DNA of 63,959 bases from Rhodocyclaceae bacterium (GTDB lineage: Bacteria > Pseudomonadota > Gammaproteobacteria > Burkholderiales > Rhodocyclaceae). The position numbers and the translations under genes are program-made. Positions within the stretch are counted from its first letter, which is position 1. Every line of letters starts with the position of its first letter. Location: positions 1 to 63,959 of the forward strand of contig JAABQX010000027.1 of assembly GCA_011391215.1 (NCBI GenBank). The letters run 5' to 3'. Under the pieces are notes generated by a model, which made no database searches, was not told the origin of the DNA, and saw nothing but the letters and a program-made list of their open reading frames with translations. Of this stretch, positions 1,751-60,584 are shown in pieces.

Positions 1751-1774
1751 GCCGTCCCGTCAGCGCCGACTTTT
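1751..1774 (+). repeat. Dispersed 24-bp repeat, copy 1
   Basis: Matches the repeat consensus (GCC, core GTCCCGCCAGCGCCGAC, TTTT) with one change in the core. It directly abuts the stop codon of lpdA (1775-1777), so it forms the first bases of the operon's 3' untranslated region. Confidence 0.9.
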
Positions 1775-3574
1775 CTAGCGTTTTTTCATCGGTGGCAGAT
1801 CGGTACAACTGCCGTGCGCCACTTCCGCCGCCATGCCAATGCTTTCGCCCAGCGTCGGGTGCGGATGGATGGTCTTGCCGATATCGAGGGCGTCGGCGCC
1901 CATCTCGATAGCCAGGCAAATTTCACCGATCATGTCGCCAGCGCTCGGACCGACGATGGCGCCGCCGACGATGCGATGGGTTTCAGTGTCGAAAATCAAC
2001 TTGGTGAAACCATAGTCAGCGCCGTTGGCGATGGCACGACCGGAGGCTGCCCAGGGAAACTTGGCGACTTCGATCTTGCGCCCGGCCTCCTTCGCTTGTA
2101 CTTCGGTCAGGCCCACCCAGGCCACCTCGGGATGTGTGTAGGCGACGCTGGGGATTACGCTGGCATCGAAGTGGGCCTTTTGCCCTGCGGCAACCTCGGC
2201 AGCGACGTGCGCTTCGTGGACGGCCTTGTGCGCCAGCATGGGCTGGCCGACGATGTCGCCGATGGCGTAGATGTGCGGCACGTTGGTGCGCATCTGGCTG
2301 TCGACCGGAATAAAGCCACGCTCATTGACGGCCACGCCCGCTTGGTCGGCGCCGATCTTCCTGCCGTTCGGGCTGCGCCCGGCAGCTTGCAGGATCAGGT
2401 CGTAGCGTTGCGCTTCCGCAGGCGCCTGCGCACCCTCGAACGTGACCCAGAGGCCATCGTCTTTAGCTTCGACAGCAACAGTTTTCGTCTTCAGCATGAT
2501 CTTGTCGAAGCGCTGGGCGTTCTGTTTTTCCCAGACCTTGACGGCATCGCGGTCGGGGCCCTGCATCAGGCCGTCGAGCATTTCGACGACATCAACCTTG
2601 GCACCGAGCGTTGAATACACCGTGGCCATTTCCAGGCCGATGATGCCGCCGCCGATCACCAGCATTTTCTTGGGTGTCTGACGAAGTTCGAGCGCCCCGG
2701 TGGAATCGACGATGCGCGGATCGCGCGGGATAAAGGGTAGATGAAACGCGGCCGAGCCGGCGGCGATGATGCACTTCTGGAAACGGATGACTTTCTTGTC
2801 GCCAGTCTTGTCCTGCGCATCACCGGTAGTCGTTTCGACTTCGAGATGGTTGGCGTCGAGGAAGTGACCGTAGCCGCGCACCACTTCGACTTTCCTGGCC
2901 TTCGCCATGCCGGCGAGCCCGCCGGTGAGTTTGCCGACCACCTTTTCCTTGTGCGCACGCAGCGCATCGATATCGACCTGCGGCGCGGCAAACGTCACGC
3001 CGGCCGCGCCGAGATGCTGCGCTTCATCCATCACGGCGGTGACATGCAGCAGCGCTTTCGAGGGAATGCAGCCGACATTCAGGCAAACGCCACCCAGCGT
3101 GGCATAGCGTTCGACCAATACCGTCTGCATGCCGAGATCGGCGCTACGGAAGGCAGCCGAGTAGCCGCCGGGACCGGCGCCGAGGACGAGCATCTCGGTT
3201 TCGATGTCCGCCTTGCCGGTGTAGCTGCCGGCAGCAAAAGTCGGCGTGACCGAAGGAAATCCCCGTGGGACTGGCGGGACGGCAACCGTTTGCAGCGTAG
3301 GCGCTGTAACGGGTTGGGGGGCAGGGGTGGCAGCCTCACCCACTTCGAGCAACAAAATCAGGCTGCCTTCAGCCAGCTTGTCGCCAAGGGCCACCTTGAT
3401 TTCTTTCACTGTGCCGGCCACGGGCGAAGGCACATCCATCGTCGCCTTGTCCGATTCGAGTGTGACCAGCGAATCCTCCGCCTTGACGACATCACCCGGC
3501 TTGACGTGGATCTCGATGAGCGGCACATCTTTGAATTCGCCGATATCCGGGACCTTGACCTCGATGGCACTCAT
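1775..3574 (-). CDS. lpdA: Dihydrolipoamide dehydrogenase (E3) with N-terminal lipoyl domain
   Basis: This is the E3 component of the pyruvate dehydrogenase complex; it reoxidises dihydrolipoamide with FAD and passes electrons to NAD+. The 599-residue product starts with a lipoyl domain ([10 protein letters not shown], the lipoylated Lys near residue 43), then an Ala/Pro/Val-rich linker. The E3 core has a GAGPGGY FAD loop, the redox-active disulfide [13 protein letters not shown], an NAD-binding [10 protein letters not shown] and the C-terminal catalytic HPHPTLGES. The lipoyl-E3 fusion is known from Neisseria p64k and many betaproteobacteria. ATG 3572-3574 overlaps the aceF stop as ATGA, indicating translational coupling. 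A possible decayed repeat copy sits in the linker (about 3237-3254). Confidence 0.95.
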
Positions 3575-4947
3575 AGCATCACCCTGCGGAAGTCGCCCAG
3601 CAACTGCGCGAGATAAGCGTTGAAGCGCGTCGCCAGCGCACCATCGACGACCCGGTGATCGGCGGAAAGCGAGAGCGGCACGATCAGGCGCGGCACGAAC
3701 TGCTTGCCGTCCCACACCGGCTGCATGCTCGATTTGCTGATACCAAGGATCGCCACTTCCGGCGCATTGACGATCGGCGAGAACGCCGTGCCGCCGATGC
3801 CGCCGACAGAGGAAATGGTGAAGGTCGCCCCCTGCATGTCGCCGGGCGGCAGTTTGCCGTCACGCGCCTTCTTCGCCAGTTCGGAAGTTTCCTGCGCGAT
3901 CTCGATGATGCCCTTCTGGTCGGCGTTCTTCAGCACCGGCACCATCAGGCCGTTGGGCGTATCTGCGGCGAAACCGATGTGCCAGTAACTCTTGAAGACC
4001 TGGCTATCTCCATCGAGCGATGAGTTGAGGTCGGGATATTTCTTCAACGCGGCGACCACGGCCTTGATCATGAATGCCAGCATCGTCACCTTGACGCCCG
4101 ACTTTTCATTCTCCTTGTTGAGCTGGACGCGTAAGGCTTCCAGGTCGGTGATGTCGGCATCCTCGTGATAGGTGACGGCGGGAATCATCACCCAGTTGCG
4201 CGCCAGGTTGGGGCCGGAAATTTTCTTGATGCGCGACAGCGGCTTGACCTCGACCGGGCCGAACTTGGCGAAGTCGACTTGCGGCCAGGGCAGCAGGTTC
4301 AAACCGCCGGCTGAAGAAGTCGGCGCCGCATTTGCCAAACCGGGGACGGCAGCCTGGCCAGAGAGTGCGCCCTTCACGTAGGCCTGCACATCCTGCTGGG
4401 TGATACGACCTTTCAGCCCGCTACCCTTGACCTGCGCCACATCGACGCCGAGTTCGCGCGCAAAACGACGCACCGACGGGCTGGCATGCGCCTTGAGGCC
4501 ATCCATTGCCGTGACGATTTCGGCAGGCGAAGGCATATGCACGGCAAGCGGAGCGGTCGTTGGCTCCTGCTCGGTGGGACGAAAATCGGTCACTGCCGAA
4601 CTTTCCGGCAGTGGTGCGACAAAAGTCGGCGCTGGCGTGACGGCGGCCGGTACAGGCGCGGCAACCGGCGGCGCTTCCTGCGCTACCGGAGCGGCGGCGG
4701 CAGATTCAACCACCTCCAGCAACACGATCACGGCACCTTCTGAAACCTTGTCACCCAAAGCAACCTTGATCTCCTTCACCGTCCCGGCCGCCGGCGCGGG
4801 CACGTCCATCGTCGCCTTGTCGGACTCCAGCGTGACCAGGGAATCCTCGGCCTTCACCACATCGCCCGGCTTGACGTGAATTTCGATGACCGGGATGTCC
4901 TTGAAATCGCCGATGTCGGGAACTTTGACTTCCATCGTCGCGGCCAT
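3571..4947 (-). CDS. aceF: Pyruvate dehydrogenase complex E2, dihydrolipoamide acetyltransferase
   Basis: E2 transfers the acetyl group from lipoamide to coenzyme A and forms the core of the complex. A single lipoyl domain ([12 protein letters not shown] near residue 44) is followed by an Ala/Pro linker, a peripheral-subunit-binding domain ([25 protein letters not shown]), a second linker, and the acyltransferase domain ending in the catalytic [13 protein letters not shown] 4947 is used here; an in-frame GTG at 4953 that overlaps the aceE stop is also possible. One copy of the dispersed 24-bp repeat (4621-4644) lies in frame in the first linker and encodes VTPAPTF. Second gene of aceE-aceF-lpdA. 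Confidence 0.95.
4621..4644 (-). repeat. Dispersed 24-bp repeat, copy 2 (inside aceF)
   Basis: The minus strand reads GCCGTCACGCCAGCG followed by CCGACTTTT, one change from consensus. It lies in the flexible linker between the lipoyl and E3-binding domains of E2, where it is translated as VTPAPTF. Confidence 0.9.
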
Positions 4948-4949
4948 GT

Positions 4950-7643: not shown

Positions 7644-7915
7644 AAGCTTCTCCTGCTGGGGTGTGTTTGGAACGCTGCACGGATTGCGCACAGCGGCATG
7701 ATTTTTATCTACTCGCCGGGTAGGCGCACCGGACGGATGGTAAAGCGTTACACGGTGGTCTGCAATATGCACCAATCAACCCCGGTTCCAGGGGCTGGCC
7801 GGCGGCGCAATGCCCGACCAAAAGCGTCGGGTAGCCGTCCCGCCAGCGCCGACTTTTGTCTACGGGCGGCCCTCGTTTGGGGTAATCTACGCGCCACAAA
7901 AGTTCAGGAGGAGTT
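7644..7915. promoter_or_regulatory. Divergent promoter region between aceE and the oxidoreductase operon
   Basis: A 272-bp gap separates aceE (minus) from the gamma subunit gene (plus) and must hold both promoters. It carries a copy of the dispersed repeat (7834-7857). The gamma subunit start is preceded by AGGAGG. CAAAAGCGTCGG at 7820-7831 can pair with CCGACTTTTG inside the repeat apart from a 2-base bulge, making a possible hairpin. I see no convincing -35/-10 pair or known operator. Confidence 0.5.
7834..7857 (+). repeat. Dispersed 24-bp repeat, copy 3
   Basis: Exact consensus copy: GCC, core GTCCCGCCAGCGCCGAC, TTTT. It lies in the aceE/oxidoreductase intergenic region about 60 bp upstream of the gamma subunit gene. 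Confidence 0.95.
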
Positions 7916-14627: not shown

Positions 14628-14651
14628 GCCGCCCCGCCAGCGCCGACTTTT
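14628..14651 (+). repeat. Dispersed 24-bp repeat, copy 4
   Basis: One base from consensus (GCCGCCCCGCC in place of GCCGTCCCGCC). It starts 3 bp after the stop codon of the preceding gene. Confidence 0.9.
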
Positions 14652-15055: not shown

Positions 15056-15154
15056 GCGGCGCAGCGCACAGGCGGTCGCCGCAGCCGACTTTCTAATCCG
15101 GCCCGCCTGCGAGCCCGCCAGTCCCACAGGAGTCTCCTTCGGCCATGCCGACGA

Positions 15155-16153: not shown

Positions 16154-16213
16154 GGGCCCGGAATGCTAGCACCATGCCAGCGCCGTCCCCATTCTGATGG
16201 CGACCCGGCTTGC

Positions 16214-16236
16214 GCCGTCTCGCCAGCGCCGACTTT
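16214..16236 (+). repeat. Dispersed repeat, copy 5
   Basis: Matches consensus with C to T in the core (GTCTCGCCAGCGCCGAC) and three Ts at the end. It is intergenic, between the RlmN-like gene and iorA. Confidence 0.9.
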
Positions 16237-16354
16237 CCATATAGACGCATGCAGGCCGAATCCGGATAATCACATCCTCAGTTTCCATCCAAGACCTGTA
16301 CCGATACATTCGGTGCGGGTTAATTTTTTCCGCCTTCTTTTTTGCGAGATCACT

Positions 16355-21924: not shown

Positions 21925-22857
21925 CTGAGCCTCACCCTCGAGCTTGCGCTGTGCTGGACGAGCGACAATGTCCAGCATGAGGATCGTCACTGGTTCACCG
22001 ATGTCGATCCGCTGGAAACCGATCTTCCCGAAGAAATCGCCGCCGCACTTGAAAAAGTCGGCGCTGGCGGGACGGCGGAGTTCGCTCTCACTGACCCGCT
22101 GGCAACCCTGAGTGTCCGCGTCCTCGCTGTACCCCCGGAACCCGCCACCGGCTACCTGCCCGTCCTCTACGCACTGAAAAGTGCCAGCGCCGCGCGGCAG
22201 GCGGCCGCCCCGCAACTGGCCGGCCTAGGCGAGCCGTACGCCCGGCCGGAGCCTGACGATACGGCTTTCTACGCGCAGCCGCGCCTCGTCGATCACCTCG
22301 ACGCCACAGCCCTCGGCCATTGGCGAGAACTTACCGGTTGCTTCGTGCAGAACGGCATGGCGGTACTGGATTTGATGGCCAGCCACGACTCCCACCTGCC
22401 ACCGCAAGCCAAGCCCGCCAGCCTCACCGGAATCGGCATGAATGCCACGGAACTGGCAGCCAACAGCGCACTCACGACGCGCATCGTCCACGACCTCAAC
22501 GCCAACCCCGCACTGCCCTGCGCCACGGCGAGCTTCGACCTGGTGTTATGCGCGCTCTCCATCGAATATCTGGAGTGCCCCGAAGCGATACTGCGCGAAG
22601 TCGCGCGGGTGCTCAAACCCGGTGGTACGTGCGTAGTGAGTTTTTCGGAGCGCTGGTTTCCACCGAAGGCCGTACTGCCCTGGCCGCCCATGAACTCCTT
22701 CGTGCGCCAGGCCTGGGTACTGCGCCATTTGCAGCGGGCTGGTTTCCAGAACCTGCACAGCGCCTCGCTGCGCGGCTACCCGCGTCCGCCGGACGACAAA
22801 TACATCCGCCAGACCCGGCTGGCTGATCCGCTCTACGCCGTTTGGGGCTCTCCCTGA
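21925..22857 (+). CDS. Class I SAM-dependent methyltransferase, start unclear
   Basis: The frame is open from TAA 21907 to TGA 22857. The C-terminal 170 residues show a methyltransferase fold: NGMAVLDLMASHDSHLP, then SFDLVLCALSIEYLECPEA and EVARVLKPGGTCVVSFSERWFP. The conserved sequence clearly extends upstream (HWRELTGCFV, FYAQPRLVDHL) well before GTG 22345. No ATG, GTG or TTG occurs in frame between 21910 and 22344; only CTG codons (21925, 21949) do. A GTG at 21917, next to the CBS stop, is in another frame. A start-proximal frameshift or a non-canonical start must be considered. A repeat copy (22053-22076) is read through as EKVGAGGTAE. Confidence 0.6.
   Translation: MSLTLELALCWTSDNVQHEDRHWFTDVDPLETDLPEEIAAALEKVGAGGTAEFALTDPLATLSVRVLAVPPEPATGYLPVLYALKSASAARQAAAPQLAGLGEPYARPEPDDTAFYAQPRLVDHLDATALGHWRELTGCFVQNGMAVLDLMASHDSHLPPQAKPASLTGIGMNATELAANSALTTRIVHDLNANPALPCATASFDLVLCALSIEYLECPEAILREVARVLKPGGTCVVSFSERWFPPKAVLPWPPMNSFVRQAWVLRHLQRAGFQNLHSASLRGYPRPPDDKYIRQTRLADPLYAVWGSP
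22053..22076 (-). repeat. Dispersed 24-bp repeat, copy 6 (inside methyltransferase frame)
   Basis: Exact consensus on the minus strand. Read from the plus strand within the methyltransferase frame it encodes KVGAGGTA, so the element sits in reverse orientation relative to the gene. Confidence 0.95.
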
Positions 22858-23113: not shown

Positions 23114-25192
23114 TCAAGCAGTCAACTTGCGATAGATGTCGGCCACTTTCAGGGGGAGCTTCTTCACGTCGTCCAGCACGGCAAAACTCGCCGGGCCGTA
23201 CATGTGGCGCAGGTAATCCGCGCCGTAGCGGTCGATGGTGATGCAGTAGCTGCGAATGCCCTGCTCGCGCGCTTCCTGCAAGGCGCGGCGCGTATCCTCG
23301 ATGCCATACTGGCCGCGATACTCGTCGCCGAAATCATCCGGCCGGCCGTCGGAAAGCGTCACCAATAACTTGTGGCGTGCCGGTTGTCTGGCAAGCAAAT
23401 GGGTGAGATGGCGGATCGCCACACCCATGCGCGTGTAGTCCTTGGCCTCGATGGCATCGATGCGGCCACGCACGGTTTCGTCGTAACGATCGGCAAAACC
23501 CTTGATGCGATAGATGTCACAGCGCGTACGCGTCCAGCCGCTGAAGCCGTAGATGGCATAGCTGTCGCCGAGTTTTTCCAGCGCCTCGCAAAGCATCACC
23601 AGCGCCTCGCGTTCGGCATCGTTGATCCAGCCCTTGGTCGAGCCGCTCATGTCCACCATGAACATCGCGGCCAGACTACGCTCGTTGCGCATGCGGCGGC
23701 AGAACAGCCGGGGCGAAGGTTCAGCGCCGCTCCTGCGATCATTCACCGCCTCGACCAGCGCATCGAGATCAATCTCTTCGCCATCTGGCTGACGGCCAAG
23801 GATGCGGTCCTCGCCGCGCACCGCCTCGAAGCGCCGCTTGAGCTGATGAATGAAGGGTGCATAGCGTTGCTTGACATCCGCCACGAAGTGACCATCGCCC
23901 GGTTGCACATCCGCCAGAAAGACATGGCACCAGTTGCGTCGGTAGGCGTTGCGCCGATAGTCCCACTCGTCGTAGCGAAAATCGGCGTCGCGCGCACTGG
24001 TCTGCTCGGGCAGGCCGAGATCCTTGCCGGTCGGATTCCACAGACCATCGCCGGCGGCGGTGAGCGCTTCCGGCGGCACATCCCCGAGATCCTGCACCAG
24101 CGATTGCGCCGCCGCACGTGCATCTGGCGGCAATCGCACGGCTTCGCCATCAAGCTGGATCTCGATTTCACCGGTTTCCTTTTGCATGAGTGCGGCGAAT
24201 TCGGAGGGTTTCGCCGGCTTCCGACCCGCCATGCCTTTGAGCGCACCGAGCGCCTTGCGCAGGGTTTCGGTATCGCGGGTAATGCGTTCGGCGCGCACGC
24301 GGCTGGCCACGGCCGGATCGAGCCGGCCGATAAAAGTCGGCGCTGGCGGGACGGCGTTCCGTTCCATGAACACCGCCAGCCACTTGAGTGTCACTTCGAT
24401 CGAGGCGGCAGGCGCCTGCAATTCCGGCAGCGCTTCCTTCATCTCATCCGGCCAGGCGCCGCGCAAGGTGGACAGCGCATGGCCCAGTCCGGGCAAATCA
24501 CGGCTGACGATCGCCTCCAGGCGCACGGCCTCCAGCGCCGCCAGCCAGCTCAGCGCTGCATCTCTCTCGGGCCAACGGTCGACCTCGGCTTCGAGATCAA
24601 CGCTGAACGTGCCATAGCGCGTCTGCGCCCACAATTGCACCGCGAGCGCCTTGTAGAGCTGGCGGTTGTCTTCGGCTGCCGTGAAATGCGCGATGCGGGC
24701 GGGCAAAAATATCGTCTCGGTATCCGTCCAGGGGTAAGTGCCTGCTTTCAGTGCCAGCGGCCGGCCGGAAAGACCCTGCACAAAACGGCCGAGCCGCGGC
24801 TCGACATCGCCGAAGCTCGCGAACAGACGCCCTTCGCGGATGGCGATAAAGCCATCGAGATCACGCAGGCGTTCCATCGCCGGCCGCAGGCCTTCGCGGT
24901 CATAGCTGTCGAGCCCGGACAGAATCCAGGCTTCGAAGGCGCCATGGTCATCCGGGTCGATGCGCTCGAGCGTCTTGGGCGCCAGCATGGCGATGATGTG
25001 GCCAATTTCGGTATTGGTTTGGGCGCCCACGCCGGCCCAGTGCAGCACCAGTTCTTGATGGGCGCGCGTCAAGGGGGCGAGCAAGGTCGCCAGCCGCTCG
25101 ATCGAGCGATGCGAGGGCGAGGCAAACAGCAGCGTGTCGAGCTGCTCTTCGAGTTCGTGCTCGAAGAGACGCCGCCCTTTTTCTTCGGCCAC
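23114..25192 (-). CDS. VWA-domain protein of the CbbO/NorD family
   Basis: 692 residues with a long N-terminal helical region and a C-terminal von Willebrand A domain. The MIDAS motif is MFMVDMSGSTKGW near residue 500. With the AAA+ partner encoded just upstream it forms a CbbQO/NorQD-type complex; such complexes remodel metalloenzymes or RuBisCO. GTG 25192 overlaps the partner's stop codon by one base. A dispersed-repeat copy (24332-24355) is translated in frame as VPPAPTF at about residue 280. There is no RuBisCO or NO reductase in the window, so the client is unknown. Confidence 0.85.
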   Translation of the reverse strand: MAEEKGRRLFEHELEEQLDTLLFASPSHRSIERLATLLAPLTRAHQELVLHWAGVGAQTNTEIGHIIAMLAPKTLERIDPDDHGAFEAWILSGLDSYDREGLRPAMERLRDLDGFIAIREGRLFASFGDVEPRLGRFVQGLSGRPLALKAGTYPWTDTETIFLPARIAHFTAAEDNRQLYKALAVQLWAQTRYGTFSVDLEAEVDRWPERDAALSWLAALEAVRLEAIVSRDLPGLGHALSTLRGAWPDEMKEALPELQAPAASIEVTLKWLAVFMERNAVPPAPTFIGRLDPAVASRVRAERITRDTETLRKALGALKGMAGRKPAKPSEFAALMQKETGEIEIQLDGEAVRLPPDARAAAQSLVQDLGDVPPEALTAAGDGLWNPTGKDLGLPEQTSARDADFRYDEWDYRRNAYRRNWCHVFLADVQPGDGHFVADVKQRYAPFIHQLKRRFEAVRGEDRILGRQPDGEEIDLDALVEAVNDRRSGAEPSPRLFCRRMRNERSLAAMFMVDMSGSTKGWINDAEREALVMLCEALEKLGDSYAIYGFSGWTRTRCDIYRIKGFADRYDETVRGRIDAIEAKDYTRMGVAIRHLTHLLARQPARHKLLVTLSDGRPDDFGDEYRGQYGIEDTRRALQEAREQGIRSYCITIDRYGADYLRHMYGPASFAVLDDVKKLPLKVADIYRKLTA
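24332..24355 (-). repeat. Dispersed 24-bp repeat, copy 7 (inside cbbO/norD-like gene)
   Basis: Exact consensus on the minus strand, in the same direction as the gene. It encodes AVPPAPTF between two helical segments of the protein. Confidence 0.95.
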
Positions 25193-26148: not shown

Positions 26149-27768
26149 ATGCAGATCACCGTCGCCGCACTTGTTGTCCGCTTCATGGAACGCCTTGGCA
26201 TCCGCACCATCTATGGCATGCCCGGCTCGCACATTCTGCCGGTCTATGATCAGCTTTTTGATTCGTCGATCAAGACGCTTCTGGTCAAGCACGAGCAGGG
26301 CGCGGCCTTCATGGCCTGCGGCGAGGCACGCGCCGGTCGCGGCATCGCGGCCTGCATTACCACCGCCGGTCCGGGCGCGACCAATCTCGTTACCGGCATC
26401 GCCAATGCCTACGCCGACAAGCTGCCGGTATTGATCATTACGGGCGAGACTTCGACCTTCATCTTCGGCAAGGGCGGACTGCAGGAAAGCTCGGGCGAAG
26501 GCGGCAGCATCAACCAGTCCGACCTGTTCCGCGGCATCACGCGCTATCACAAGATCGTCGAACGCACCGACTACCTGCTGCAGGTGCTGCGGCAGGCGAC
26601 ACGCATCCTGCTCTCGCCCAACGCCGGGCCGGTGCTGCTTTCATTTCCGTACAATATCCAGAAAGAGCTGGTGGACGAAAACCTGCTCGACGCCATCCGC
26701 TTTGTCACCGATCCGCCGCCGATCTGCAATCGCTTCGCCGCCACCGACGAAATGGCGCAAATGATCCGTACTGCCCGCTGCCCGATGATCGTCGCCGGCC
26801 ACGGCTGCTTTCTCGCCGGCGCACAGGCGGCATTGCAGAAGCTCGGTGACCGGCACTCGATCCCTGTGGCAACCACGCTGAAGGGCAAGGGGCTGATCGC
26901 CGAGAGCGACCCGCGTTCGCTCGGCTGCCTCGGCGTCACCTCCAATGGCGAAGCGTTTCGTCACATCGTCGACCATGCCGACCTGGTGATCGTGCTCGGC
27001 GCGACATTCAACGAGCGCACCAGCTACCTGTGGGACCCCACGCTGATGGGGGGCAAGCGCGTGATCCAGATCGACCACGATGCGGCACAACTGGAGAAGG
27101 TGTTCCGCGCCGACCTCGCCATCCACGGCGATATCCGCGCCGTACTCGAAGATCTGCTCGAATGCCTCGGAGATGCTACCGTCCCGCCAGCGCCGACTTT
27201 CTCGCCACCCGCCGTGGCCGCGCATTTCACCGCCGTCGCACATCTCTTCGAGCGCCTCGTCGAGCGCCTGCCGCAAGCCATGGTGTTCGACGACAACGTC
27301 ATTCTCGCGCAGACCTACCTGAAGGCCTCGCCGCAACATCGCTACTTTCCGAACTCCGGTGTTTCATCGCTCGGCCATGCCATTCCTGCGGCTATCGGCG
27401 CACGCTGCGCCGTCGCTGTGCCGACCTTCGCCATCCTCGGCGACGGCGGCTTCCAGATGTGCTGCATGGAGCTGATGACGGCCGTGAACTACGGCATTCC
27501 CCTCAACGTGGTGATGATCAACAACGGCACGTTGGGGTTGATCCGCAAGAACCAGTTCCAGCTTTATCACGAGCGCTATATCGACTGCGATTTCGTTAAC
27601 CCCGACTATGCGCTGCTGGCGCAGTCCTTCGGCATCCAACACTGGCGCGTCGAAACTGCGGCGGATGTGGATGCGCTGTTCGAGTGCGCCGATCTCGCCA
27701 GAGGCATCAACCTCATCGAAGTGATCTGGGACAAGCATGTCTTCCCCGCCTACAAATCAGACCGCTAG
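26149..27768 (+). CDS. Acetolactate-synthase-like TPP-dependent enzyme
   Basis: 539 residues, full three-domain TPP enzyme of the acetolactate synthase/benzoylformate decarboxylase superfamily. Pyrimidine domain: YGMPGSHILPVYD, the catalytic Glu in VKHEQGAAFMACGEARA, and TTAGPGATNLVTGIANAYAD. TPP domain: GDGGFQMCCMELMTA with NNGTLGLIRKNQF. There is no regulatory small subunit gene nearby, so a catabolic or specialised role is more likely than branched amino-acid synthesis. ATG 26149 gives MQITVAALVVRFMERLG; the frame is open far upstream without homologous sequence. A repeat copy is embedded as VPPAPTF (27178-27200). Confidence 0.85.
   Translation: MQITVAALVVRFMERLGIRTIYGMPGSHILPVYDQLFDSSIKTLLVKHEQGAAFMACGEARAGRGIAACITTAGPGATNLVTGIANAYADKLPVLIITGETSTFIFGKGGLQESSGEGGSINQSDLFRGITRYHKIVERTDYLLQVLRQATRILLSPNAGPVLLSFPYNIQKELVDENLLDAIRFVTDPPPICNRFAATDEMAQMIRTARCPMIVAGHGCFLAGAQAALQKLGDRHSIPVATTLKGKGLIAESDPRSLGCLGVTSNGEAFRHIVDHADLVIVLGATFNERTSYLWDPTLMGGKRVIQIDHDAAQLEKVFRADLAIHGDIRAVLEDLLECLGDATVPPAPTFSPPAVAAHFTAVAHLFERLVERLPQAMVFDDNVILAQTYLKASPQHRYFPNSGVSSLGHAIPAAIGARCAVAVPTFAILGDGGFQMCCMELMTAVNYGIPLNVVMINNGTLGLIRKNQFQLYHERYIDCDFVNPDYALLAQSFGIQHWRVETAADVDALFECADLARGINLIEVIWDKHVFPAYKSDR
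27178..27200 (+). repeat. Dispersed repeat, copy 8 (inside TPP-enzyme gene)
   Basis: Core exact, first base A instead of G, three Ts at the end. Same direction as the gene; translated TVPPAPTF in the linker between the central and the C-terminal TPP domain. Confidence 0.92.
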
Positions 27769-29281
27769 TCCTGTACATCGTTTCATCATCGTCGTGCCGG
27801 TTGCTGACCGGCCGCGCCATATCCAGGCCTGTCTGGACAGCCTCACCGAGTTGCTGCGGCGCTATCCCAACCCACGCGCCGTTACTGTCATCATCGCCGA
27901 CGACAGCGCTGACGCGGCCAACGTCGCGGCGAATCGGGTGATTGCCGGGCGCTACAGTAGCGCCGGCCTGACCGTCATTCATTTTGGTCCGGACGAGCAG
28001 TTTGCCCTGATCGGATCACTGCAGGAGACGCTGCCCGGTATTGTCGGCAACGCGCCGCGTGAGCGCTTCGGCCACAAAGGCCAGGGCGTGATGCGCAACA
28101 TCGCCTACCTCAAGGTCGCCGAGATGTTAAAGGGCGCACCCGATGACGACACGTTGATCTGGTCGCTCGACAGCGATCAGGAGTTTCGCGTCAATATGCC
28201 GGAAAACGATGGCTACGTCATCGACTACTTCCGCGACCTCGACGCGATTTTTGCGCAGACCGATGCGCAGGTGCTCACGGGCAAAGTGGTCGGCGACCCA
28301 CCGGTCTCGCCAGCCGTGATGACGCGCAACTTCCTCGCCGACGTGGAAGGCTTCCTGCAGGGCATGGCGACACGCGACGCGCAGGCGCCGTGCAGCCATC
28401 ATGGCAACGCGCAGAACAGCAGCAATGCTGCCTATCACGACATGGCCGACCTGTTCGGTTTCGCGCCTGACGCACGCTACGCCTACCCCTGCCCGCTGCT
28501 GGGCGAACATGCCGAAGCGGATTGCTTCGCCCATTTTGCCGGCCGCGTGAACAGCTTTTTCTACGGCGAGCACCCGACGCGCATCACCGCCTACGAGCCG
28601 GCCGAGCTGTTTTCGACGGTGCAGCCGGCGCGCACCGTGTATGCCGGCAACTACATGTTCCGACCGGCGGCGCTCAAGTACTTCATCCCCTTCGCCCATC
28701 TGCGGCTCAGAATGTCCGGCCCGACGCTAGGGCGCATCCTCAAGGCCGAGCTTGGCTCACGTTTCGTTTCCGCCAACCTGCCAATGCTGCACAAGCGCAC
28801 GGTGGAAAGCGGTGGCCAAGCCGAGTTCCGCCCGGGGATTGAAACGACTGAACAGATTATCGACATGAGCGGCGAATTCGAACGGCAGTTCTACGGCGAC
28901 GTGATGCTGTTCACCCAAGAGCGCCGTTCATCTAGCCACTCATCTAGCCGTCCCGCCAGCGCCGACTTTTCATTGATCGATTCGGTACGCGAGGAAATGC
29001 TTGAGAAGTACAACGCGCGCCAGCTGGCAATTCTGGACCGGCTCGCCGGCGTCGAAGCACTGCTTGACGACCCTGCTCGCTGGTGGCGCGATCATCCCGC
29101 CAGCGCGCAGTTTCGCCACTTCTGCGCCAATGTACGACGCAACTTCGGCGCCGCATCGCCGGGGCATCTACGCATCAACGCTGCTGACAACTGGGCCAAA
29201 TGGCGTGTCGCATTGCTCGAGGCAATTGCCCGCTATCCGGCGGATCGCCAGGCCTGGGAGCAGGTACTTTGCACTGGCTGA
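27737..29281 (+). CDS. Family-2-like glycosyltransferase
   Basis: 514 residues. The N-terminal part has a GT-A start (HRFIIVVPVADRPRHIQACL) and a metal-binding DxD in IWSLDSDQEF near residue 137. Further regions, such as YAGNYMFRPAALKYFIPF, are consistent with a nucleotide-sugar transferase that recognises an unusual acceptor. The start overlaps the preceding gene by 32 bp. The C-terminal half is helical; a repeat copy is translated as SRPASADFS. No membrane segment. Substrate unknown; the neighbours suggest a shared, unrecognised pathway. Confidence 0.6.
   Translation: MSSPPTNQTASPVHRFIIVVPVADRPRHIQACLDSLTELLRRYPNPRAVTVIIADDSADAANVAANRVIAGRYSSAGLTVIHFGPDEQFALIGSLQETLPGIVGNAPRERFGHKGQGVMRNIAYLKVAEMLKGAPDDDTLIWSLDSDQEFRVNMPENDGYVIDYFRDLDAIFAQTDAQVLTGKVVGDPPVSPAVMTRNFLADVEGFLQGMATRDAQAPCSHHGNAQNSSNAAYHDMADLFGFAPDARYAYPCPLLGEHAEADCFAHFAGRVNSFFYGEHPTRITAYEPAELFSTVQPARTVYAGNYMFRPAALKYFIPFAHLRLRMSGPTLGRILKAELGSRFVSANLPMLHKRTVESGGQAEFRPGIETTEQIIDMSGEFERQFYGDVMLFTQERRSSSHSSSRPASADFSLIDSVREEMLEKYNARQLAILDRLAGVEALLDDPARWWRDHPASAQFRHFCANVRRNFGAASPGHLRINAADNWAKWRVALLEAIARYPADRQAWEQVLCTG
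28947..28970 (+). repeat. Dispersed 24-bp repeat, copy 9 (inside glycosyltransferase gene)
   Basis: Exact consensus in the direction of the gene, read in a different frame from the other embedded copies, giving RPASADFS. Just before it CATCTAGCC is nearly duplicated (28930 and 28941 areas), which could be a trace of the insertion event. Confidence 0.95.
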
Positions 29282-35806: not shown

Positions 35807-37237
35807 CTAGCGGCGGCGCATTTCTTCCATCTTGCGCTGCTTCAATTCGTGCAAACGGGCATCCACTTGGGATTGCTCGTAAAAATCGCCCCCCCCGGCC
35901 TTGCGTGCCAATTCGAGCTGCTCGATCGCCGGGTCAAGCTGCCCCTCGACCAGATATGCCTCAGCCTGGGCGCGGTGCTGCTGCAGATGCTTGCCCATCA
36001 TGGCATAGGTCTTTGCCTGCAGTTCATGCAGGCGCGCATCCCCGGGCGTGAGCTGCAACTCTTTTTGCGTCATCGCCAGAGCTTCCGCCGTCTCGCCAGC
36101 GCCGACTTTTGTTTCGATCAGTGCGTAGGTCAGCGCCCGCACATGCGGGTAATGCTGCGCCGCCCCACGCAAAATTTGCAGCGCACCCGCGACATCCTGA
36201 CGTTTGAGGCGCAACTGCGCCGCCAGGGTTTCGAGTAGCGGCGATTCCAGCTTGAGGCGGCGCAACGTTGCCAGCTCGGCCTCGGCCGCCGCGATCTTGT
36301 TATCCCGCAGCAACGCATGGGCATAACCGAACCGCGCATCGGTCTCGCGGGCATATTTCCCCGATTTCAACTGGGCGGAAAAATCCGCCACGGCATCACC
36401 CGGCGTACCATCGTAAGCCTTGATCTTGGCGCGTACTAGACCGAATTCATCGCTGTCGGGAACCTGCCGGTAAGGCTTCTGGGCGATACGGTTTTCCATA
36501 TCGGTAATCCGCTCGGTCGTCAGCGGGTGGGTACGCAAGTAACCTGGTGCGTTATTTTCGTAAAGGCGGCCGAACTGCAGCAGACGCTCGAAAAAACTCC
36601 CCATGCCGCGTGTGTCGTAACCCGCTTTCTCCATCAGATCGAGACCGAAGCGATCGGCCTCGCGCTCGAAATCGCGCGAATAATTCAGTTGCTGCTGAAC
36701 ACCCACCGCTTGGCCGGAAATCGCCGCGCCGATCGCCACATCAGGATTGCTGCGCGCCGCCAGGATCGCCACAGCCATCGACAGGATTGAAGCCAGTTGC
36801 ATTTCGCTCTGCTTGCCGAACATGCGCGCCAGATGGCTCTGCGTGACATGTGAAATTTCGTGGGCCAGCACGCCAACCAGTTCCGATTCGGAGCGCGCCG
36901 CTAGAATAAGCGCGCTATGCACTCCGATGTACCCCCCGGGCAGGGCAAATGCATTGAGCATCGGGTCGCGCACGATGAAGAATTCGAAAGGCTGACGCGC
37001 CCCGTCAATATGGCCCGCCAGGCGCTGCCCCAGCTGGCCGATGTAGCCGACGATCTCGGGATCCTGCAGATAAGCCGGGTCACGACGGATCTCCAGCATG
37101 ATCCGCTCGCCCAAACGCTTCTCGGCGGATACCGAAAGTCCGCTGCGCTCCATCTCGCCAAGGTCGGGCAAGCCATCGGCGCGCACCATTGCCAACGGCC
37201 ATAACAATCCCGCAATCAGCCACAGATAAATTCTCAT
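35807..37237 (-). CDS. M48-family periplasmic metalloprotease with TPR domain, BepA-like
   Basis: 476 residues. A signal peptide (MRIYLWLIAGLLWPLAMVRA) precedes an M48 domain with the zinc motif LAHEISHVTQSH near residue 120 and a later EREADRFGLD. The C-terminal third is TPR-like (ARLHELQAKTYAMMGKHLQQ). This is the BepA (YfgC) layout; the enzyme controls quality of the LPS transporter LptD and BAM substrates in the outer membrane. A repeat copy (36087-36110), reversed relative to the gene, is translated as KVGAGETAEAL between two TPR helices. Confidence 0.88.
   Translation of the reverse strand: MRIYLWLIAGLLWPLAMVRADGLPDLGEMERSGLSVSAEKRLGERIMLEIRRDPAYLQDPEIVGYIGQLGQRLAGHIDGARQPFEFFIVRDPMLNAFALPGGYIGVHSALILAARSESELVGVLAHEISHVTQSHLARMFGKQSEMQLASILSMAVAILAARSNPDVAIGAAISGQAVGVQQQLNYSRDFEREADRFGLDLMEKAGYDTRGMGSFFERLLQFGRLYENNAPGYLRTHPLTTERITDMENRIAQKPYRQVPDSDEFGLVRAKIKAYDGTPGDAVADFSAQLKSGKYARETDARFGYAHALLRDNKIAAAEAELATLRRLKLESPLLETLAAQLRLKRQDVAGALQILRGAAQHYPHVRALTYALIETKVGAGETAEALAMTQKELQLTPGDARLHELQAKTYAMMGKHLQQHRAQAEAYLVEGQLDPAIEQLELARKAGGGDFYEQSQVDARLHELKQRKMEEMRRR
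36087..36110 (+). repeat. Dispersed 24-bp repeat, copy 10 (inside bepA-like gene)
   Basis: Consensus except C to T in the core (GTCTCGCC). It is reversed relative to the gene and encodes TKVGAGETA within the TPR part. Confidence 0.92.
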
Positions 37238-38478: not shown

Positions 38479-38502
38479 GCCGTCCCGCCAGCGCCGACTT
38501 TT
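38479..38502 (+). repeat. Dispersed 24-bp repeat, copy 11
   Basis: Exact consensus in the 47-bp gap between the hemN stop (38511) and the start of the TauE/SafE gene (38463). Confidence 0.95.
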
Positions 38503-39902: not shown

Positions 39903-39990
39903 GACTAAAGTGATGATGAGGATCCCGAACAGCGACGGCAAACACCGTCATATGAGGCGTGCAGAATGCAGCAAGCGGGAACTGTTCACG

Positions 39991-40772: not shown

Positions 40773-41168
40773 TCAGGCCAGCATACCCAGCGGATGCTTG
40801 GTCAGCGCCACCGAAACTATCCAGCCGAACACGGCGACAGCGGCAACGCCTGCCATGATGCGCAGCAGCGGGCTACGTCCCGGCGCAAATGCCAGCGCAC
40901 CGAGCATGATGTAGGCAATCAGGCCAAATATCTTGGCCGTCAGCCAAGTGTCAACAAAAGGATATTGACCGATCAGCACCGTAAGCGTAAGGGCCGCCGC
41001 CAGCAGGATACTGTCATTTACATGGGGCAGGATGCGCATCCAACGCCGTTCATTTTGCCGTCCCGCCAGCGCCGACTTCTGCAGCAACAGCATACCGCGC
41101 AGACAGAATCCGGTAATGCTCAATGCCACACAAACGATATGCAAATGTTTCACCGCCAGATAAAGCAT
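40773..41168 (-). CDS. SirB-family membrane protein
   Basis: 131 residues with four membrane helices (VALSITGFCLRGMLLL, ILLAAALTLTVLIGQYP, IFGLIAYIMLGALAF and a last one). WMRILPHVNDS is the conserved SirB signature. The function of SirB proteins is not known. A dispersed-repeat copy lies in frame after helix one and adds KSALAGRQ before NERRWMRILPH. The gene converges with fnr with no spacing. Confidence 0.8.
   Translation of the reverse strand: MLYLAVKHLHIVCVALSITGFCLRGMLLLQKSALAGRQNERRWMRILPHVNDSILLAAALTLTVLIGQYPFVDTWLTAKIFGLIAYIMLGALAFAPGRSPLLRIMAGVAAVAVFGWIVSVALTKHPLGMLA
41057..41080 (+). repeat. Dispersed 24-bp repeat, copy 12 (inside SirB gene)
   Basis: Consensus apart from the next-to-last base. 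Reversed relative to the gene and read in a third frame, giving KSALAGRQ in a cytoplasmic loop. Confidence 0.9.
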
Positions 41169-46777: not shown

Positions 46778-46801
46778 GCCGTCCCGCCAGCGCCGATTTT
46801 T
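46778..46801 (+). repeat. Dispersed 24-bp repeat, copy 13
   Basis: Consensus with GATTTTT in place of GACTTTT. Its last base is the first base of the reversed phaC stop codon (46801-46803), the same arrangement as at lpdA. Confidence 0.9.
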
Positions 46802-48534
46802 TAACTCTCCAGCACATAGATGCCCGGAGCATCCGACTTGGCCGGATAGGTTTTATTAGCGGTTACCTGAGGCTTGCCGAGGGCGCCCGATTGGGGCTTG
46901 AGCCAGCGCATCCAGTCTTCCCACCAGCTTCCCGCGTGATGTTCTGCTCGCTCCTGCCATTCTTCAGGGGTGTCATGGCGCTCGGCGCTGCCCACCCAGT
47001 AATCGCGCTTGGGCGGACTGACGACCGGATTGACGATGCCCAGAATGTGACCAGAACTGGACAGCACATTGCGCTTCAGACCGGATACCAGGTTGTTGAT
47101 CCGGAATGTCTGTTTCCAGGGCGCAATGTGATCATCTGCGGCAGACACCGAGTACACCGGCTGCGTAATGCGGCTCAGGTCGATCGACTGGCCAGACACC
47201 TCGAGAGCATCCTTCTTGATCAGCTTGTTGTCGAGATAGAGATTACGCAGATACCAGGTGTGCATCTTGGCTGGCATGCGCGTGGTATCCATGTTCCAGA
47301 ACAACACGTCGAAAGGCGGTGGCGCCTCGCCGTAAAGATAACCATGCACGACGTAATGCCAGATCAGCGTATTCGAGCGCAACAGACGGAAGGCAGCAGC
47401 CATCTCCTTGCCATCGAGGAAACCCTTTTCCTCCATCTTGCGGGACAGGAAAGTAAAGCTGCCTTCGTCGAGAAAGACCTCGATATCGCCCGGCTTGTGG
47501 TAATCCACCAGGGTAGTTAAGAAGGTCGCACTCTCCACCGGCACATCCTTGGCGGCATATTTCCGGTTCGCCCAGGCCATGTAGGCAGCCAGTGCCGCGC
47601 CGCCGATGCAATAGCCCGCTGCATGGATCTTGTCGCTCTTCGAAATGTTGCGTACCGCCTCGACAGCGGCATCGATGCCTTCGGTCAAGTAATCGTCGAA
47701 ACCCACGTCGGCCATCGACGCATCTGGATTCTTCCAGCTGGTAATGTAGACATCGAAACCCTGCTCGAGCAGATATTTGATGATGCTCTTCTTGGGTGTC
47801 AGGTCGAGGATGTAGAACTTGTTGATCCACGGGGTGACGATGAGAATGGGCGTGCGGTAGGTCTCGGCAGCCGTCGGGGTGTAGTGGATTACCTCCAGCA
47901 AGCGGTTTTGCAGTACCACCTTGCCCGGTGTGGTGGCGAGGTTCACGCCGACCTTGAAATCACCCGGCCGCGTCATACGGATATTGCCGGCCTGCAGGTC
48001 ATCAATGAAGTTTCGCATGCCACGGATCAGGCTTTCACCGTTGGATTCCATAGCCTTCTTCATCGCCACCGGGTTGGTCATCAGGAAATTGGTGGGTGCC
48101 ATCGCGTTAAGCCACTCGCGCCACCAGAATGCCGCGCGACGGCGATCGCGGTTCGACATCCCGGGCGACTTGAAGAGCATGTCCTGAATATGGTGCGTGC
48201 TCATCAGGTACCACTCTTTGGCGACATCCCAGGAGGCCGACTCCTTCCACACCGGATCGGCGAAGCGGGGGTCATCCGGATTGGCAGATTCGACATCGGG
48301 ACTCTGCAAACCGAGCATGCGCTGCCACGAATGCCACTGCAAAGCCATCATGCGCGTCGAAAAATCGGAAGCGGCTTCGGCCAACTCCTGCGGATGCGTT
48401 GCCCATGCCAACTGGGCATGCAAAAGCGGCACAGTCATGCCCAACGGATCCAGATGGGTTTCCACCGCCTCGTGCATGGCGCGAATGGCGTGATGAGGCG
48501 CTGCAGCGGCAGCGGAAAATTTACTTGATGTCAT
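46801..48534 (-). CDS. phaC: Poly(3-hydroxyalkanoate) synthase, class I
   Basis: 577 residues. The lipase-box-like active site is GYCIGGAALAAYM (catalytic Cys), with the general-base region SAADDHIAPWKQT and SSGHILGIVNP downstream. The N-terminal domain (FLMTNPVAMKKAMESNGESL) is typical for class I enzymes that polymerise short-chain 3-hydroxyacyl-CoA. ATG 48534 has AAGGAGGG upstream. No phaA or phaB is adjacent. It diverges from a universal stress protein gene with an FNR-type box between them. Confidence 0.95.
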   Translation of the reverse strand: MTSSKFSAAAAAPHHAIRAMHEAVETHLDPLGMTVPLLHAQLAWATHPQELAEAASDFSTRMMALQWHSWQRMLGLQSPDVESANPDDPRFADPVWKESASWDVAKEWYLMSTHHIQDMLFKSPGMSNRDRRRAAFWWREWLNAMAPTNFLMTNPVAMKKAMESNGESLIRGMRNFIDDLQAGNIRMTRPGDFKVGVNLATTPGKVVLQNRLLEVIHYTPTAAETYRTPILIVTPWINKFYILDLTPKKSIIKYLLEQGFDVYITSWKNPDASMADVGFDDYLTEGIDAAVEAVRNISKSDKIHAAGYCIGGAALAAYMAWANRKYAAKDVPVESATFLTTLVDYHKPGDIEVFLDEGSFTFLSRKMEEKGFLDGKEMAAAFRLLRSNTLIWHYVVHGYLYGEAPPPFDVLFWNMDTTRMPAKMHTWYLRNLYLDNKLIKKDALEVSGQSIDLSRITQPVYSVSAADDHIAPWKQTFRINNLVSGLKRNVLSSSGHILGIVNPVVSPPKRDYWVGSAERHDTPEEWQERAEHHAGSWWEDWMRWLKPQSGALGKPQVTANKTYPAKSDAPGIYVLES

Positions 48535-56107: not shown

Positions 56108-56127
56108 GATGTTTAGCTCCCTTGCAG

Positions 56128-57895: not shown

Positions 57896-57920
57896 AAGTT
57901 CCTCGCTTATCAAGTTTTCC

Positions 57921-58103
57921 TTATTTCCTGCCCTCAGAATTCTGTTTTACAGAATCAGCGGTGGAATCATCGTCCATCAATATCCGGTAGGCCGGCCCTT
58001 CCAGATCCTCCATCTGGCCACTTTTCAGTGACCACCAGAAGATCAGGCCGATCACGAAGACCAGTACCACCGACACGGGAATCAGCAAATAGAGGCTTTC
58101 CAT
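57921..58103 (-). CDS. ccoS: cbb3 oxidase maturation protein CcoS
   Basis: 60 residues: one membrane helix (MESLYLLIPVSVVLVFVIGL) followed by the CcoS signature WWSLKSGQMEDLEGPAYRIL. CcoS is required for cofactor insertion into CcoN. It lies 6 bp after ccoI on the same strand. Confidence 0.92.
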   Translation of the reverse strand: MESLYLLIPVSVVLVFVIGLIFWWSLKSGQMEDLEGPAYRILMDDDSTADSVKQNSEGRK

Positions 58104-58109
58104 CTTCTT

Positions 58110-60584
58110 TCATGTACCAGAACGAATTGGCTTTTGCAGGCGCAGGGCATTCAACACCACCAGCAGGGAGCTGGCCGACATGCCGATACCGGCCATCCAC
58201 GGCGTCACCCAGCCGGCCATGGCGAGCGGGATAGCAATAATATTGTAGAGGAAGGCCCAAGCGAGATTCTGGCGCATGATCGCCAGAGTGCGTTTGGCGA
58301 TAGCAATACCGGCCACCAGATGGGCCGGATCATTCGATAACAACACAACGTCCGCCTGGCTACGCGCCAGGTCGGTACCCGCGCCCATAGCGACGGACAC
58401 ATGCGCCTGCGCGAGGACGGGCGCATCATTCACCCCGTCGCCAACCATTGCCACGTTGGCACCGCCGGCTTGAGCCGCGCGCACATAGGCATGCTTGTCT
58501 TCGGGTGCCATGCCGCCATGAAAGTCAGCGATACCCAGTTCTGCGGCCACCGCTGCCACGGTCTGTGGCGCGTCACCGGAGAGGATGGTCAGCTTCACCC
58601 CATGAGCACTGAAGCGGCCCAGCGCAACCGCCACCCCGGGACGCAGGGCATCGGCGATACGGAACCACGCGCGCCAACCGGTGCTGTCGCCCAGCGCCAC
58701 CACGCTATCGCCGGCCGCCAGCCAGTCAGCCATTTCCGCCGTCATGGGCTGGCCATGCAGTGCAGCGACAAAGGCCGGCACACCGATACGGATCTGGTCA
58801 CCACTCTGCAACCGCGCCTCGATGCCTAGACCCGTTTGCGCCCTCAGCAGGGTTAATTGCGCCGTCTCGCCAGCGCCGACTTTTTCGAGCAGCGCCCGGC
58901 CCAGCGGATGCTCCGATGCCTGCTCGAGGGCGCGCACCAAGGCGAACGCCTCCGTCTCGTCAGCTCCCTCGGCGCAACGTAAAGCCACCACACCCGGCCG
59001 GCCGACGGTGAGCGTACCGGTCTTGTCGAAAATCCAGTGAGTGGCGCGTGCCAAGGTTTCTATGGCGTGCCCGCGCGTGACCAGCACGCCCTCGCGAGCC
59101 AGCGCACCGGTCGCCACCGTCAACGCCGCCGGGGTCGCCAGCGACAAAGCACAGGGGCAGCTGACCACCAGGACCGCGACAAAAACCCACAACGCCCGAT
59201 CCGCATCGACATTCAGCCAATACGCTCCCGTAACCAGCGCCAGCACCAACAATACCCAGACAAAATGCGCTGCAATGCGGTCGGCCTGCTGCACCAGCGC
59301 CGGCTTTTCCGCCGCCGCCTGCTCCATAAGGCGGCGGATCGACGCCAGCCGGGTGGCCTCGCCAACCTGGGTGAGGCGCACGACCAGTGGGCTGGCCACA
59401 TTCACGCTGCCGCCCGTCACCGCATCGCCCGTCTGCTTTGCCACCGGTCGGCTTTCACCTGTCAGCAGCGATTCATCCGTACTGCTGGCGCCATCGAGGA
59501 CTTCGCCGTCACCCGGAATCACTGAACCCGGCCGCACCCGCACGCAATCGCCGACACACAGATCGACTACCGCCACGCGCTCACCCTCTTCCGCAGGCCA
59601 CTGCGGCAGCCGCTCTGCAAACGCCGGCAGCGCCCGCGCCAGCGCCTCGACCCCGCGCGCCGCCTTCTGCCGCGCCATCATCTCCAGATAGCGGCCGGTC
59701 AGCAGGAAAAACACGAACATCGTCACCGAGTCGAAATACACCTCGCCCGCTGCCGTAAGCGTCGCCCAGACGCTGGCGGCGAACGCACTACCGACGCCCA
59801 GGGCCACCGGCACATCCATGCCGACGCGGCGGAATTTGATGTCACGCCAGGCGTTCCTGAAAAATGGCGCTGCCGAATAAAATATGACCGGTATTGTGAG
59901 GATCAGGCTCGCCCAGCGCAACAACTGGGAGATATCGAGCGACATGTCGCCCCCCTCCCCCACATCCGCCATGTACGCCGGCAGCGCATACATCATCACC
60001 TGCATCATGCCGAAACCGGCGACGAAGAGACGCCACTGTGCGGTACGGCGCTCCTTCTGCGCCAACTGCTCGGAACGCGTAATGTCGTAAGGGTGCGCAC
60101 GGTAGCCGATCGCCTGGATCGCCTCGAGAATCGCCGAGAGTTTGGTGAGATTGTCATCCCAGCGCACGCGTGCACGGCGCGTGGCGTAATTGATATCCAC
60201 CGCCGTCACACCGGGCTGCCGCGCGATATGCGCTTCGTTCAACCAGACGCAGGCTGCGCAGGTAATGCCTTCAAGAATCAGCGCCGCCTCGCGCTCGTGC
60301 TCGCCCTCACTTGTACGAATTTCCCGCACAAAGTTCTTTTGTACCTCGGGATGATCGAACAACCCAAGCTCCTGCAAGGCTTGCGGGATCGCTTCGCGCG
60401 GGCTTTCGGGCATGGCATCGCGATGCCGGTAGTAATCGGTCAGGTTGTTGGCGACAATAGCCTGCGCCACGGCCTGGCAACCGCCACAACACATGCGGCG
60501 CGGCTCTCCTCCGATCTCGACCTCGATGTCGAGACCCGCCGGCACCGGCAGGCCGCAGTGGTAACAAGGTTCAGTCGCGCTCAA
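58110..60584 (-). CDS. ccoI: Copper-translocating P1B-type ATPase for cbb3 assembly (CcoI/FixI)
   Basis: 824 residues. The N-terminus has a metal-binding cysteine-rich part (CYHCGLPVPAG, RRMCCGGCQAVAQAI) and a heavy-metal domain motif GITCAACVWLNEAHI. The ATPase core has the CPC transport motif VVSCPCALSLATPAAL, the phosphorylation site FDKTGTLTVGRP and the hinge VGDGVNDAPVL. CcoI-type pumps export Cu for cbb3 oxidase. The start appears to be TTG 60584 (MSATEPCYHCG after initiation) with a weak ribosome site. A reversed repeat copy is translated as EKVGAGETAQL in the nucleotide-binding domain. Confidence 0.93.
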   Translation of the reverse strand: MSATEPCYHCGLPVPAGLDIEVEIGGEPRRMCCGGCQAVAQAIVANNLTDYYRHRDAMPESPREAIPQALQELGLFDHPEVQKNFVREIRTSEGEHEREAALILEGITCAACVWLNEAHIARQPGVTAVDINYATRRARVRWDDNLTKLSAILEAIQAIGYRAHPYDITRSEQLAQKERRTAQWRLFVAGFGMMQVMMYALPAYMADVGEGGDMSLDISQLLRWASLILTIPVIFYSAAPFFRNAWRDIKFRRVGMDVPVALGVGSAFAASVWATLTAAGEVYFDSVTMFVFFLLTGRYLEMMARQKAARGVEALARALPAFAERLPQWPAEEGERVAVVDLCVGDCVRVRPGSVIPGDGEVLDGASSTDESLLTGESRPVAKQTGDAVTGGSVNVASPLVVRLTQVGEATRLASIRRLMEQAAAEKPALVQQADRIAAHFVWVLLVLALVTGAYWLNVDADRALWVFVAVLVVSCPCALSLATPAALTVATGALAREGVLVTRGHAIETLARATHWIFDKTGTLTVGRPGVVALRCAEGADETEAFALVRALEQASEHPLGRALLEKVGAGETAQLTLLRAQTGLGIEARLQSGDQIRIGVPAFVAALHGQPMTAEMADWLAAGDSVVALGDSTGWRAWFRIADALRPGVAVALGRFSAHGVKLTILSGDAPQTVAAVAAELGIADFHGGMAPEDKHAYVRAAQAGGANVAMVGDGVNDAPVLAQAHVSVAMGAGTDLARSQADVVLLSNDPAHLVAGIAIAKRTLAIMRQNLAWAFLYNIIAIPLAMAGWVTPWMAGIGMSASSLLVVLNALRLQKPIRSGT
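58861..58884 (+). repeat. Dispersed 24-bp repeat, copy 14 (inside ccoI)
   Basis: Consensus except C to T in the core (GTCTCGCC). Reversed relative to the gene; translated EKVGAGETA in a surface part of the N-domain of the ATPase. Confidence 0.92.

Follow-up and report, generated by a model that had tools for sequence, protein, structure and literature searches.

Why should one 24-base-pair (bp) word recur on both strands of a bacterial contig, between genes and inside them, and what keeps it there? The question is raised by the first 63,959 nucleotides of contig JAABQX010000027.1 of a Rhodocyclaceae bacterium (assembly GCA_011391215.1), the whole of which is called the window here and which holds 15 copies of the 24-mer GCCGTCCCGCCAGCGCCGACTTTT (25 bases with a leading pyrimidine). 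We argue that the repeat is probably a self-recognition sequence of the uptake-signal type, which in some genera of the Rhodocyclaceae would play the part that the DNA uptake sequence (DUS) plays in Neisseriaceae and the uptake signal sequence (USS) in Pasteurellaceae. Copy number, origin by substitution, upkeep, lack of polarity, even spacing, scarcity on conjugation contigs and the existence of dialects together suggest such a profile.

The word, its copy number and its dialects

The 17-mer core of the word had 18 matches in the window at up to three mismatches, against 0.89 expected in shuffled sequence. The consensus, YGCCGTCCCGCCAGCGCCGACTTTT, built from 109 copies with up to two core mismatches in 454 kb, has sharp edges at 25 bp and flanks that carry no signal. 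A sequence-only reading of the window had named 14 positions, every one of which proved to be a copy with 0-2 mismatches to the 24-mer (Table 1). Among its weaker matches, the one at 61291 is the 15th copy (three mismatches), whereas 3237, 12869 and 15075 were rejected as copies, the best agreement within 30 bases being 15, 15 and 13 of 24 positions. Eight of the 15 copies lie in genes, where the peptides named in that reading were verified, and seven lie between genes, four of which have a stop codon no more than 8 bases away; genes were called with a simple gene caller, the starts of which are unreliable. The same reading had judged a single copy to be a poor hairpin, as was borne out by fold z values of +0.42 and −0.11 for the two strands, and an Rfam search of the window gave no match.

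The genome from which the window comes (2.33 Mb, 76% complete) contained 497 core matches at up to two mismatches, 267 forward and 230 reverse, compared with 3 for a reversed control; the count is thus not that expected from base composition, and the repeat stands as a dispersed element. Core matches numbered 160-673 in 18 of 19 genomes of the genus, the remaining one (G006) having a single match. When 18 other genera of the family were sampled with the core, G019 (553 matches) and G026 (641) were carriers and 16 had 1-16; 24 genomes of other families had 0-28. Of 199 sampled genomes of the family, 27, representing 10 of 68 genera, had at least 50 copies of the frame GCCGT-N12-GACTTT: 26 of them had 87-677 copies and G188 had 63. 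Family genomes below that level had 26 (G154), 16 (G097), 12 (G107 and G232) or at most 10 copies. There was no carrier among 242 sampled genomes outside the family (8 of the 250 genomes in the order-level sample belong to the family), the highest count being 18, in G292. G006, G194 and G124 are near-empty of the word, and G016 and G002 have lower counts. In two small trees G006 had a long branch or fell outside the rest of the genus, with weak support, and no replacement dialect appeared among the seven most over-represented 9-, 11- and 13-mers of G006 and G021 (151 and 153 kb). At least two copies with up to six mismatches were held by 7 of the 80 loci, many of them short, that were found by an IspH scan.

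The spelling varies by species and genus around a conserved frame, which is the dialect trait of DUS and USS. Among copies picked at up to five mismatches to the G000 consensus, those of G000, G001 and G012 share that consensus, whereas those of G017 end in C, T or G and have either GAC or GAG, giving GA[C/G]TTT. The dialect of G016 begins GCCGCC (7 copies only); that of G019, GCCGT[A/G/C][C/G/T]..., has A, G or C as the seventh of its 25 bases, and in part of the T-run C takes the place of T; and that of G026, CGCCGTCCCGCCAGC[G/A]CCGACTTTT, is split between GCGCCGAC and GCACCGAC. G028 (g11), a non-carrier by the core, has a sister word of equal length, GCCGT-N9-ACTGACTTT, in that its over-represented 9-mer ACTGACTTT is preceded at a fixed distance by GCCGT at six of seven places and by GCCGC at one. 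Dialects collected with the frame, the outer blocks of which are fixed by the search pattern, were GCGTCGAC (...CAGCGTCGACTTT) in g69, a form with T at base eight in G187 (g88), and CTGACTTT in both G028 and G064 (g47); 29 copies define the G028 form and 5-8 copies each of the others.

Origin, upkeep and placement of the copies

We compared 172 in-gene copies of five carriers with their orthologues in 156 alignments, several per copy in places and hence non-independent. The orthologue held the motif (at least 18 of 24 bases) in 66 alignments; the residues are therefore often missing at these sites in orthologues, and this comparison, proposed in the sequence-only reading, left the dispersed element unrefuted. 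A gap of seven or more residues was found in only 1 of the 90 alignments in which the motif was lacking or half-held. Those 90 had some gap at the site in 16-20% of cases (control places, 3-4%) and a query gap in 9-11% (controls, 1-3%). Because gaps were more frequent at the sites than at controls, yet were not long, the sites behave as variable loops and not as insertions, and the near absence of long gaps shows that copies form by point substitution in place. The copy at 4621, for instance, is kept at 22 of 24 bases in G001 and at 16 of 24 in G012, where there is no 24-bp gap; that at 27178 is kept at 21 of 24 in G001, and the orthologues in G012, G016 and G017 lack the motif in an ungapped protein alignment. 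The site at 24332 carries the motif in G001 and G012 (24/24), G017 and G002 (22/24), G016 (21/24) and G019 (20/24), and the adjoining codons differ in these six relatives. In 73 same-genus pairs, including those in which the motif was not kept, 77% of third codon positions were identical in the motif, compared with 54% in the flanks, a pattern of conservation at the nucleotide level. The copies of G000 divide into 98 with 0-2 mismatches, 27 with 3-5 and 8 with 6.

Only 62 of 125 G000 copies are in genes, though 86% of the sequence is called coding (binomial, 3e-21), and the corresponding number in G017 is 58 of 91 (3e-8). Within genes, the copies on each strand largely avoid one of the three reading frames (2 of 75 sense copies and 3 of 97 antisense copies), and frame usage is filtered by the encoded peptide. 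In-gene copies of G017 are antisense in 42 cases and sense in 16 (p 0.0009); in G000 the numbers are 28 and 33, with no antisense excess. Of 60 intergenic G000 copies with two flanking genes, 27 lie within 15 bases of the nearest gene, and 25 of these lie at a stop, 15 in the opposite and 10 in the same orientation.

The copies are spaced more evenly than random: in five genomes pooled there were 42 gaps shorter than 1000 bp, 65.4 being expected, and none of 2000 shuffles gave so low a number; the even spacing is significant in G000 by itself too. In G017, a single contig, the ratio of copies on leading and lagging strands was 47:40, as counted in 22 of 24 stretches with the arms assigned by the sign of GC skew and two stretches beside the presumed origin excluded. 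The replication strand bias for which the sequence-only reading had suggested a check is therefore not seen in G017, and no regional pattern was evident by eye in the 24 stretches. Chi, KOPS (FtsK orienting polar sequences) and matS resemble the word in being chromosomal, short and frequent. They are polar or confined to one region, unlike this word, which shows no polarity in G017 and changes its spelling between species, and polar words such as Chi and KOPS were rejected on the 47:40 ratio. Genome G002 includes two extra contigs of lower G+C that bear genes for conjugation: both have TraC and TraI types, and C2 has TraG and a coupling protein as well. These contigs contained no copy in 149 kb and one in 100 kb, compared with nine in 60 kb of the main contig of the genome (p 3e-6), so that in this one genome the word is nearly absent from mobile DNA, as represented by two contigs with conjugation genes.

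Neighbouring repeats and copies outside the carriers

Table 1. Copies of the 24-mer in the window, and loci of two repeats found in other stretches
Feature	Position	Strand	Mismatches	Setting
Copy	1751..1774	+	1	Intergenic, directly after stop of lipoamide dehydrogenase-like gene 1775-3715(-)
Copy	4621..4644	-	1	In aceF-like gene 3571-4953(-), peptide AVTPAPTF, between lipoyl and E3-binding domains
Copy	7834..7857	+	0	Intergenic
Copy	14628..14651	+	1	3 bases past stop codon
Copy	16214..16237	+	2	5' part of open reading frame 15947-18214 (thiamine pyrophosphate (TPP)/4Fe-4S oxidoreductase), or upstream if start is later
Copy	22053..22076	-	0	Between predicted genes
Copy	24332..24355	-	0	In VWA-domain gene 23114-25192(-), peptide AVPPAPTF
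Copy	27178..27201	+	2	In TPP-enzyme gene, peptide TVPPAPTF
Copy	28947..28970	+	0	In predicted gene 27794-29281(+) without Pfam match, peptide SRPASADFS
Copy	36087..36110	+	1	Antisense in M48 peptidase/TPR (BepA-like) gene, TKVGAGETA
Copy	38479..38502	+	0	Intergenic, 8 bases off stop of gene 38511-39941(-)
Copy	41057..41080	+	1	Antisense in predicted gene 40773-41093(-), QKSALAGRQ
Copy	46778..46801	+	1	Abuts stop codon of PhaC-like gene 46801-48534(-)
Copy	58861..58884	+	1	Antisense in heavy-metal P-type ATPase gene, EKVGAGETA
Copy	61290..61313	-	3	In AAA ATPase gene with MgsA C-terminal domain
54-bp hairpin unit	L045:18969-19093			
54-bp hairpin unit	L057:19255-19335			
54-bp hairpin unit	L028, about 15570-15655			
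54-bp hairpin unit	L227, about 2205-2330			
AATGGACAATCTG	L026:6253-6380			
AATGGACAATCTG	L041:18436-18560			
AATGGACAATCTG	L056			
AATGGACAATCTG	L028			

Some copies in G017 and G002 have beside them a hairpin unit of 54 bp, which consists of an inverted motif pair and stands there once or twice in tandem; it also occurs in frame, as judged from the translation, in a trpC-like gene, and one stretch that bears it folds at −42 kcal/mol (z −4.4). The unit resembles the dyad pairs of DUS that PMC3630211 describes in S. muelleri. A second dispersed sequence, AATGGACAATCTG, often forms inverted pairs roughly 100-200 bp apart and was counted 12 times in 480 kb of G017, five times in 60 kb of G002 and not at all in the G000 or G006 stretches. 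Within the window, 3240-3278 and 15114-15152, near two of the rejected weak sites, are the arms of a different inverted repeat (39 bp, 85% complementary), and 559-611 forms an inverted repeat of 26 bp, nearly perfect, with a single-base loop.

Copies were also met outside the carriers. Contig C45 of G292 (L283:1-16000), from another family, has the g11 dialect five times in the 12 kb next to one of its ends, where G+C is about 0.68-0.73 compared with 0.62 past 16 kb; this cluster is either transferred DNA or part of a chimeric contig. Similar small clusters were seen in G097 and G096, and lone canonical copies in the single-contig genome G036. Among the six stretches of non-carriers, some copies may reflect transfer and some binning error. 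An exact 23-mer of the motif was present in 40 stretches of viral contigs from IMG/VR (L181-L220), in 38 of them just once and in some cases at the end of the contig; such copies may stem from prophage edges or from host DNA that was misfiled.

An uptake-type recognition sequence and its alternatives

DUS is read by the minor pilin ComP. It resembles the present repeat in having hundreds to thousands of copies in and between genes, dialects and, in some species, inverted pairs, and its hosts are also Betaproteobacteria. Both words contain GCCGTC, as the sequence-only reading had remarked; the likeness holds for those six bases, which are too few to prove kinship, and the core differs, being CTG in DUS. 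DUS proper was rejected as the identity of the repeat, a 24-25-mer with another consensus in another family. Passages of PMC3630211 describe DUS dialects, inverted pairs, foreign-dialect copies and permissive positions in the core genome, and give 943 to nearly 6000 copies, compared with about 60-680 here. For both USS and DUS, sections of PMC1939737 describe origin by point mutation, significantly even spacing and no orientation bias, and the present repeat shares all three traits with USS. USS differs from it in being 9 nt long, unrelated in sequence and found in another class. The reader of USS is not established by experiment, and likewise no reader has been singled out for the present word.

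By analogy with these systems, we infer binding, preferred uptake and a receptor. A receptor for DNA at the cell surface, most likely a minor pilin of a type IV pilus, would bind fragments that carry the 24-25-bp word, and such fragments would be preferred for import. Homologous recombination would then fix alleles that match the word. Transformation drive of this kind would build copies by point mutation wherever coding permits and maintain them against mutation, and the spelling would drift together with the receptor to give dialects.

The competence machinery that such a route would use was found in part. Prepilin motifs were present in all 10 genomes searched, and ComEC and DprA each scored over the cut-off in 28 of 30 genomes (22 and 21, respectively, of 23 carriers). 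Two of these carriers, G154 and G188 of g90, have low counts, and when they are set aside the numbers are 21 of 21 for ComEC, 19 of 21 for DprA and 2 of 21 for ComEA. Pilins of the ComP_DUS type, found in 33 of 35 genomes, and the GspH/FimT families occur both in carriers and in non-carriers. Since ComEC, DprA and prepilins also occur in non-carriers, they permit uptake but are no argument in its favour. A recognisable ComEA is rare in the family sample (6 of 34 genomes over the cut-off) while ComEC and DprA are common; it was found in 4 of 11 non-carriers and 2 of 23 carriers (Fisher, p 0.07). Weaker ComEA matches fell mostly in long frames that we take to be Tex or RuvA.

Several observations weigh against uptake. 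Canonical ComEA (TIGR00426 over the cut-off) was found in only those two carriers, both g88; of the carriers, G019 lacked any DprA match and G114, a single contig, had no more than a fragment of 34 positions. Among the matches listed, no compared pilin separated carriers from non-carriers and no receptor was found, and the non-carrier congener G006 retains ComEC, DprA and pilins. When G012, G019 and G026 were pooled alone, the deficit of gaps shorter than 1000 bp was not significant (P 0.25). Half-formed copies in G000 are scarcer than slow build-up might be thought to predict, and depletion on two contigs of one genome fits a chromosome-maintenance site equally well. The open-licence literature yielded no report of natural transformation in this group. 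The word, at 24-25 bp, is about twice the length of DUS (ca. 9-12 nt; PMC12616744), and it differs from DUS further in that ComEA is mostly missing, no counterpart of ComP has been singled out and uptake is proposed by analogy. The suggestion of an extended uptake sequence in the sequence-only reading therefore fares well on dialects, copy number, spacing, non-polarity, substitution and contig scarcity, and poorly on ComEA.

The strongest alternative, which we nevertheless consider unlikely, is that the word is bound by an intracellular protein which organises or repairs the chromosome (a nucleoid-associated, an occlusion or a recombination-hotspot protein) and requires many sites without polarity, and that host selection maintains these sites. 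Such a site would be chromosomal, evenly spaced and scarce on the two conjugation-gene contigs, the intergenic excess and the near equality of strands agree with it, and it would not require ComEA. However, the copies of G017 have neither replication polarity nor, by eye, a regional pattern, the word is lacking in the congener G006 and in most of the family's sampled genera, and concerted respelling between species would be hard for an essential reader but easy for drive. Less probable still is a relic, in which a former uptake or binding system has lost its receptor or ComEA and the copies are decaying. The rarity of ComEA, the missing or fragmentary DprA of two carriers, the lower counts in G016 and G002 and the near-empty genomes G006, G194 and G124 would accord with decay; yet 98 of the 125 G000 copies with up to five mismatches have 0-2, and the motif outlasts its flanks between species, which argues that upkeep was needed until recently.

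A small mobile or palindromic element inserting in frame, like Rickettsia palindromic elements, repetitive extragenic palindromic sequences or miniature inverted-repeat transposable elements, is very improbable. Rickettsia palindromic elements are insertions, longer than this word, and are likewise tolerated within open frames, a likeness on which the sequence-only reading had drawn in noting that 24 bp preserves the frame. The dispersal within and between genes and the 54-bp unit beside some G017 and G002 copies, once in frame, recall such an element. However, orthologues without the motif show no matching gap (the 1 in 90 given above), so that no insertion is seen and the multiple-of-three length is beside the point; the more frequent small gaps are as expected of variable loops, a single copy lacks a hairpin, the flanks lack a pattern, and the 54-bp unit occurs, among the matches listed, only in G017 and G002 loci. 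A transcription terminator or RNA regulatory element at gene ends can practically be dismissed, since, for all that 25 of 60 intergenic G000 copies lie near a stop and one end is a T-run, half of the G000 copies are in genes, copies at stops point either way, the fold of a single copy is no better than that of shuffled sequence and the window has no Rfam match.

To our knowledge, uptake sequences have been reported only for Neisseriaceae and Pasteurellaceae. In open-licence papers, with few subscription journals and preprints covered, we found no description of the word and no text joining Rhodocyclaceae with "DNA uptake sequence", and four forms of the word itself were not found in the open-licence papers. 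The chances seem to us evenly balanced that the repeat marks a third independent origin of sequence-specific self-DNA uptake, with a bipartite word, GCCGT-N12-GACTTT, a drifting middle, a receptor of double footprint and, in most carriers, no ComEA; in that case its reader and its periplasmic step of import would both be unlike those of the neisserial and pasteurellacean systems. If so, a third family with much longer dialect words would mean that transformation drive evolves repeatedly, and its carriers, dialect switches and losses would form a natural comparison set for the co-evolution of receptor and genome, with a bearing on gene exchange among environmental bacteria. If the word does not serve uptake, a chromosome-wide 24-bp code with species dialects would be at least as surprising.

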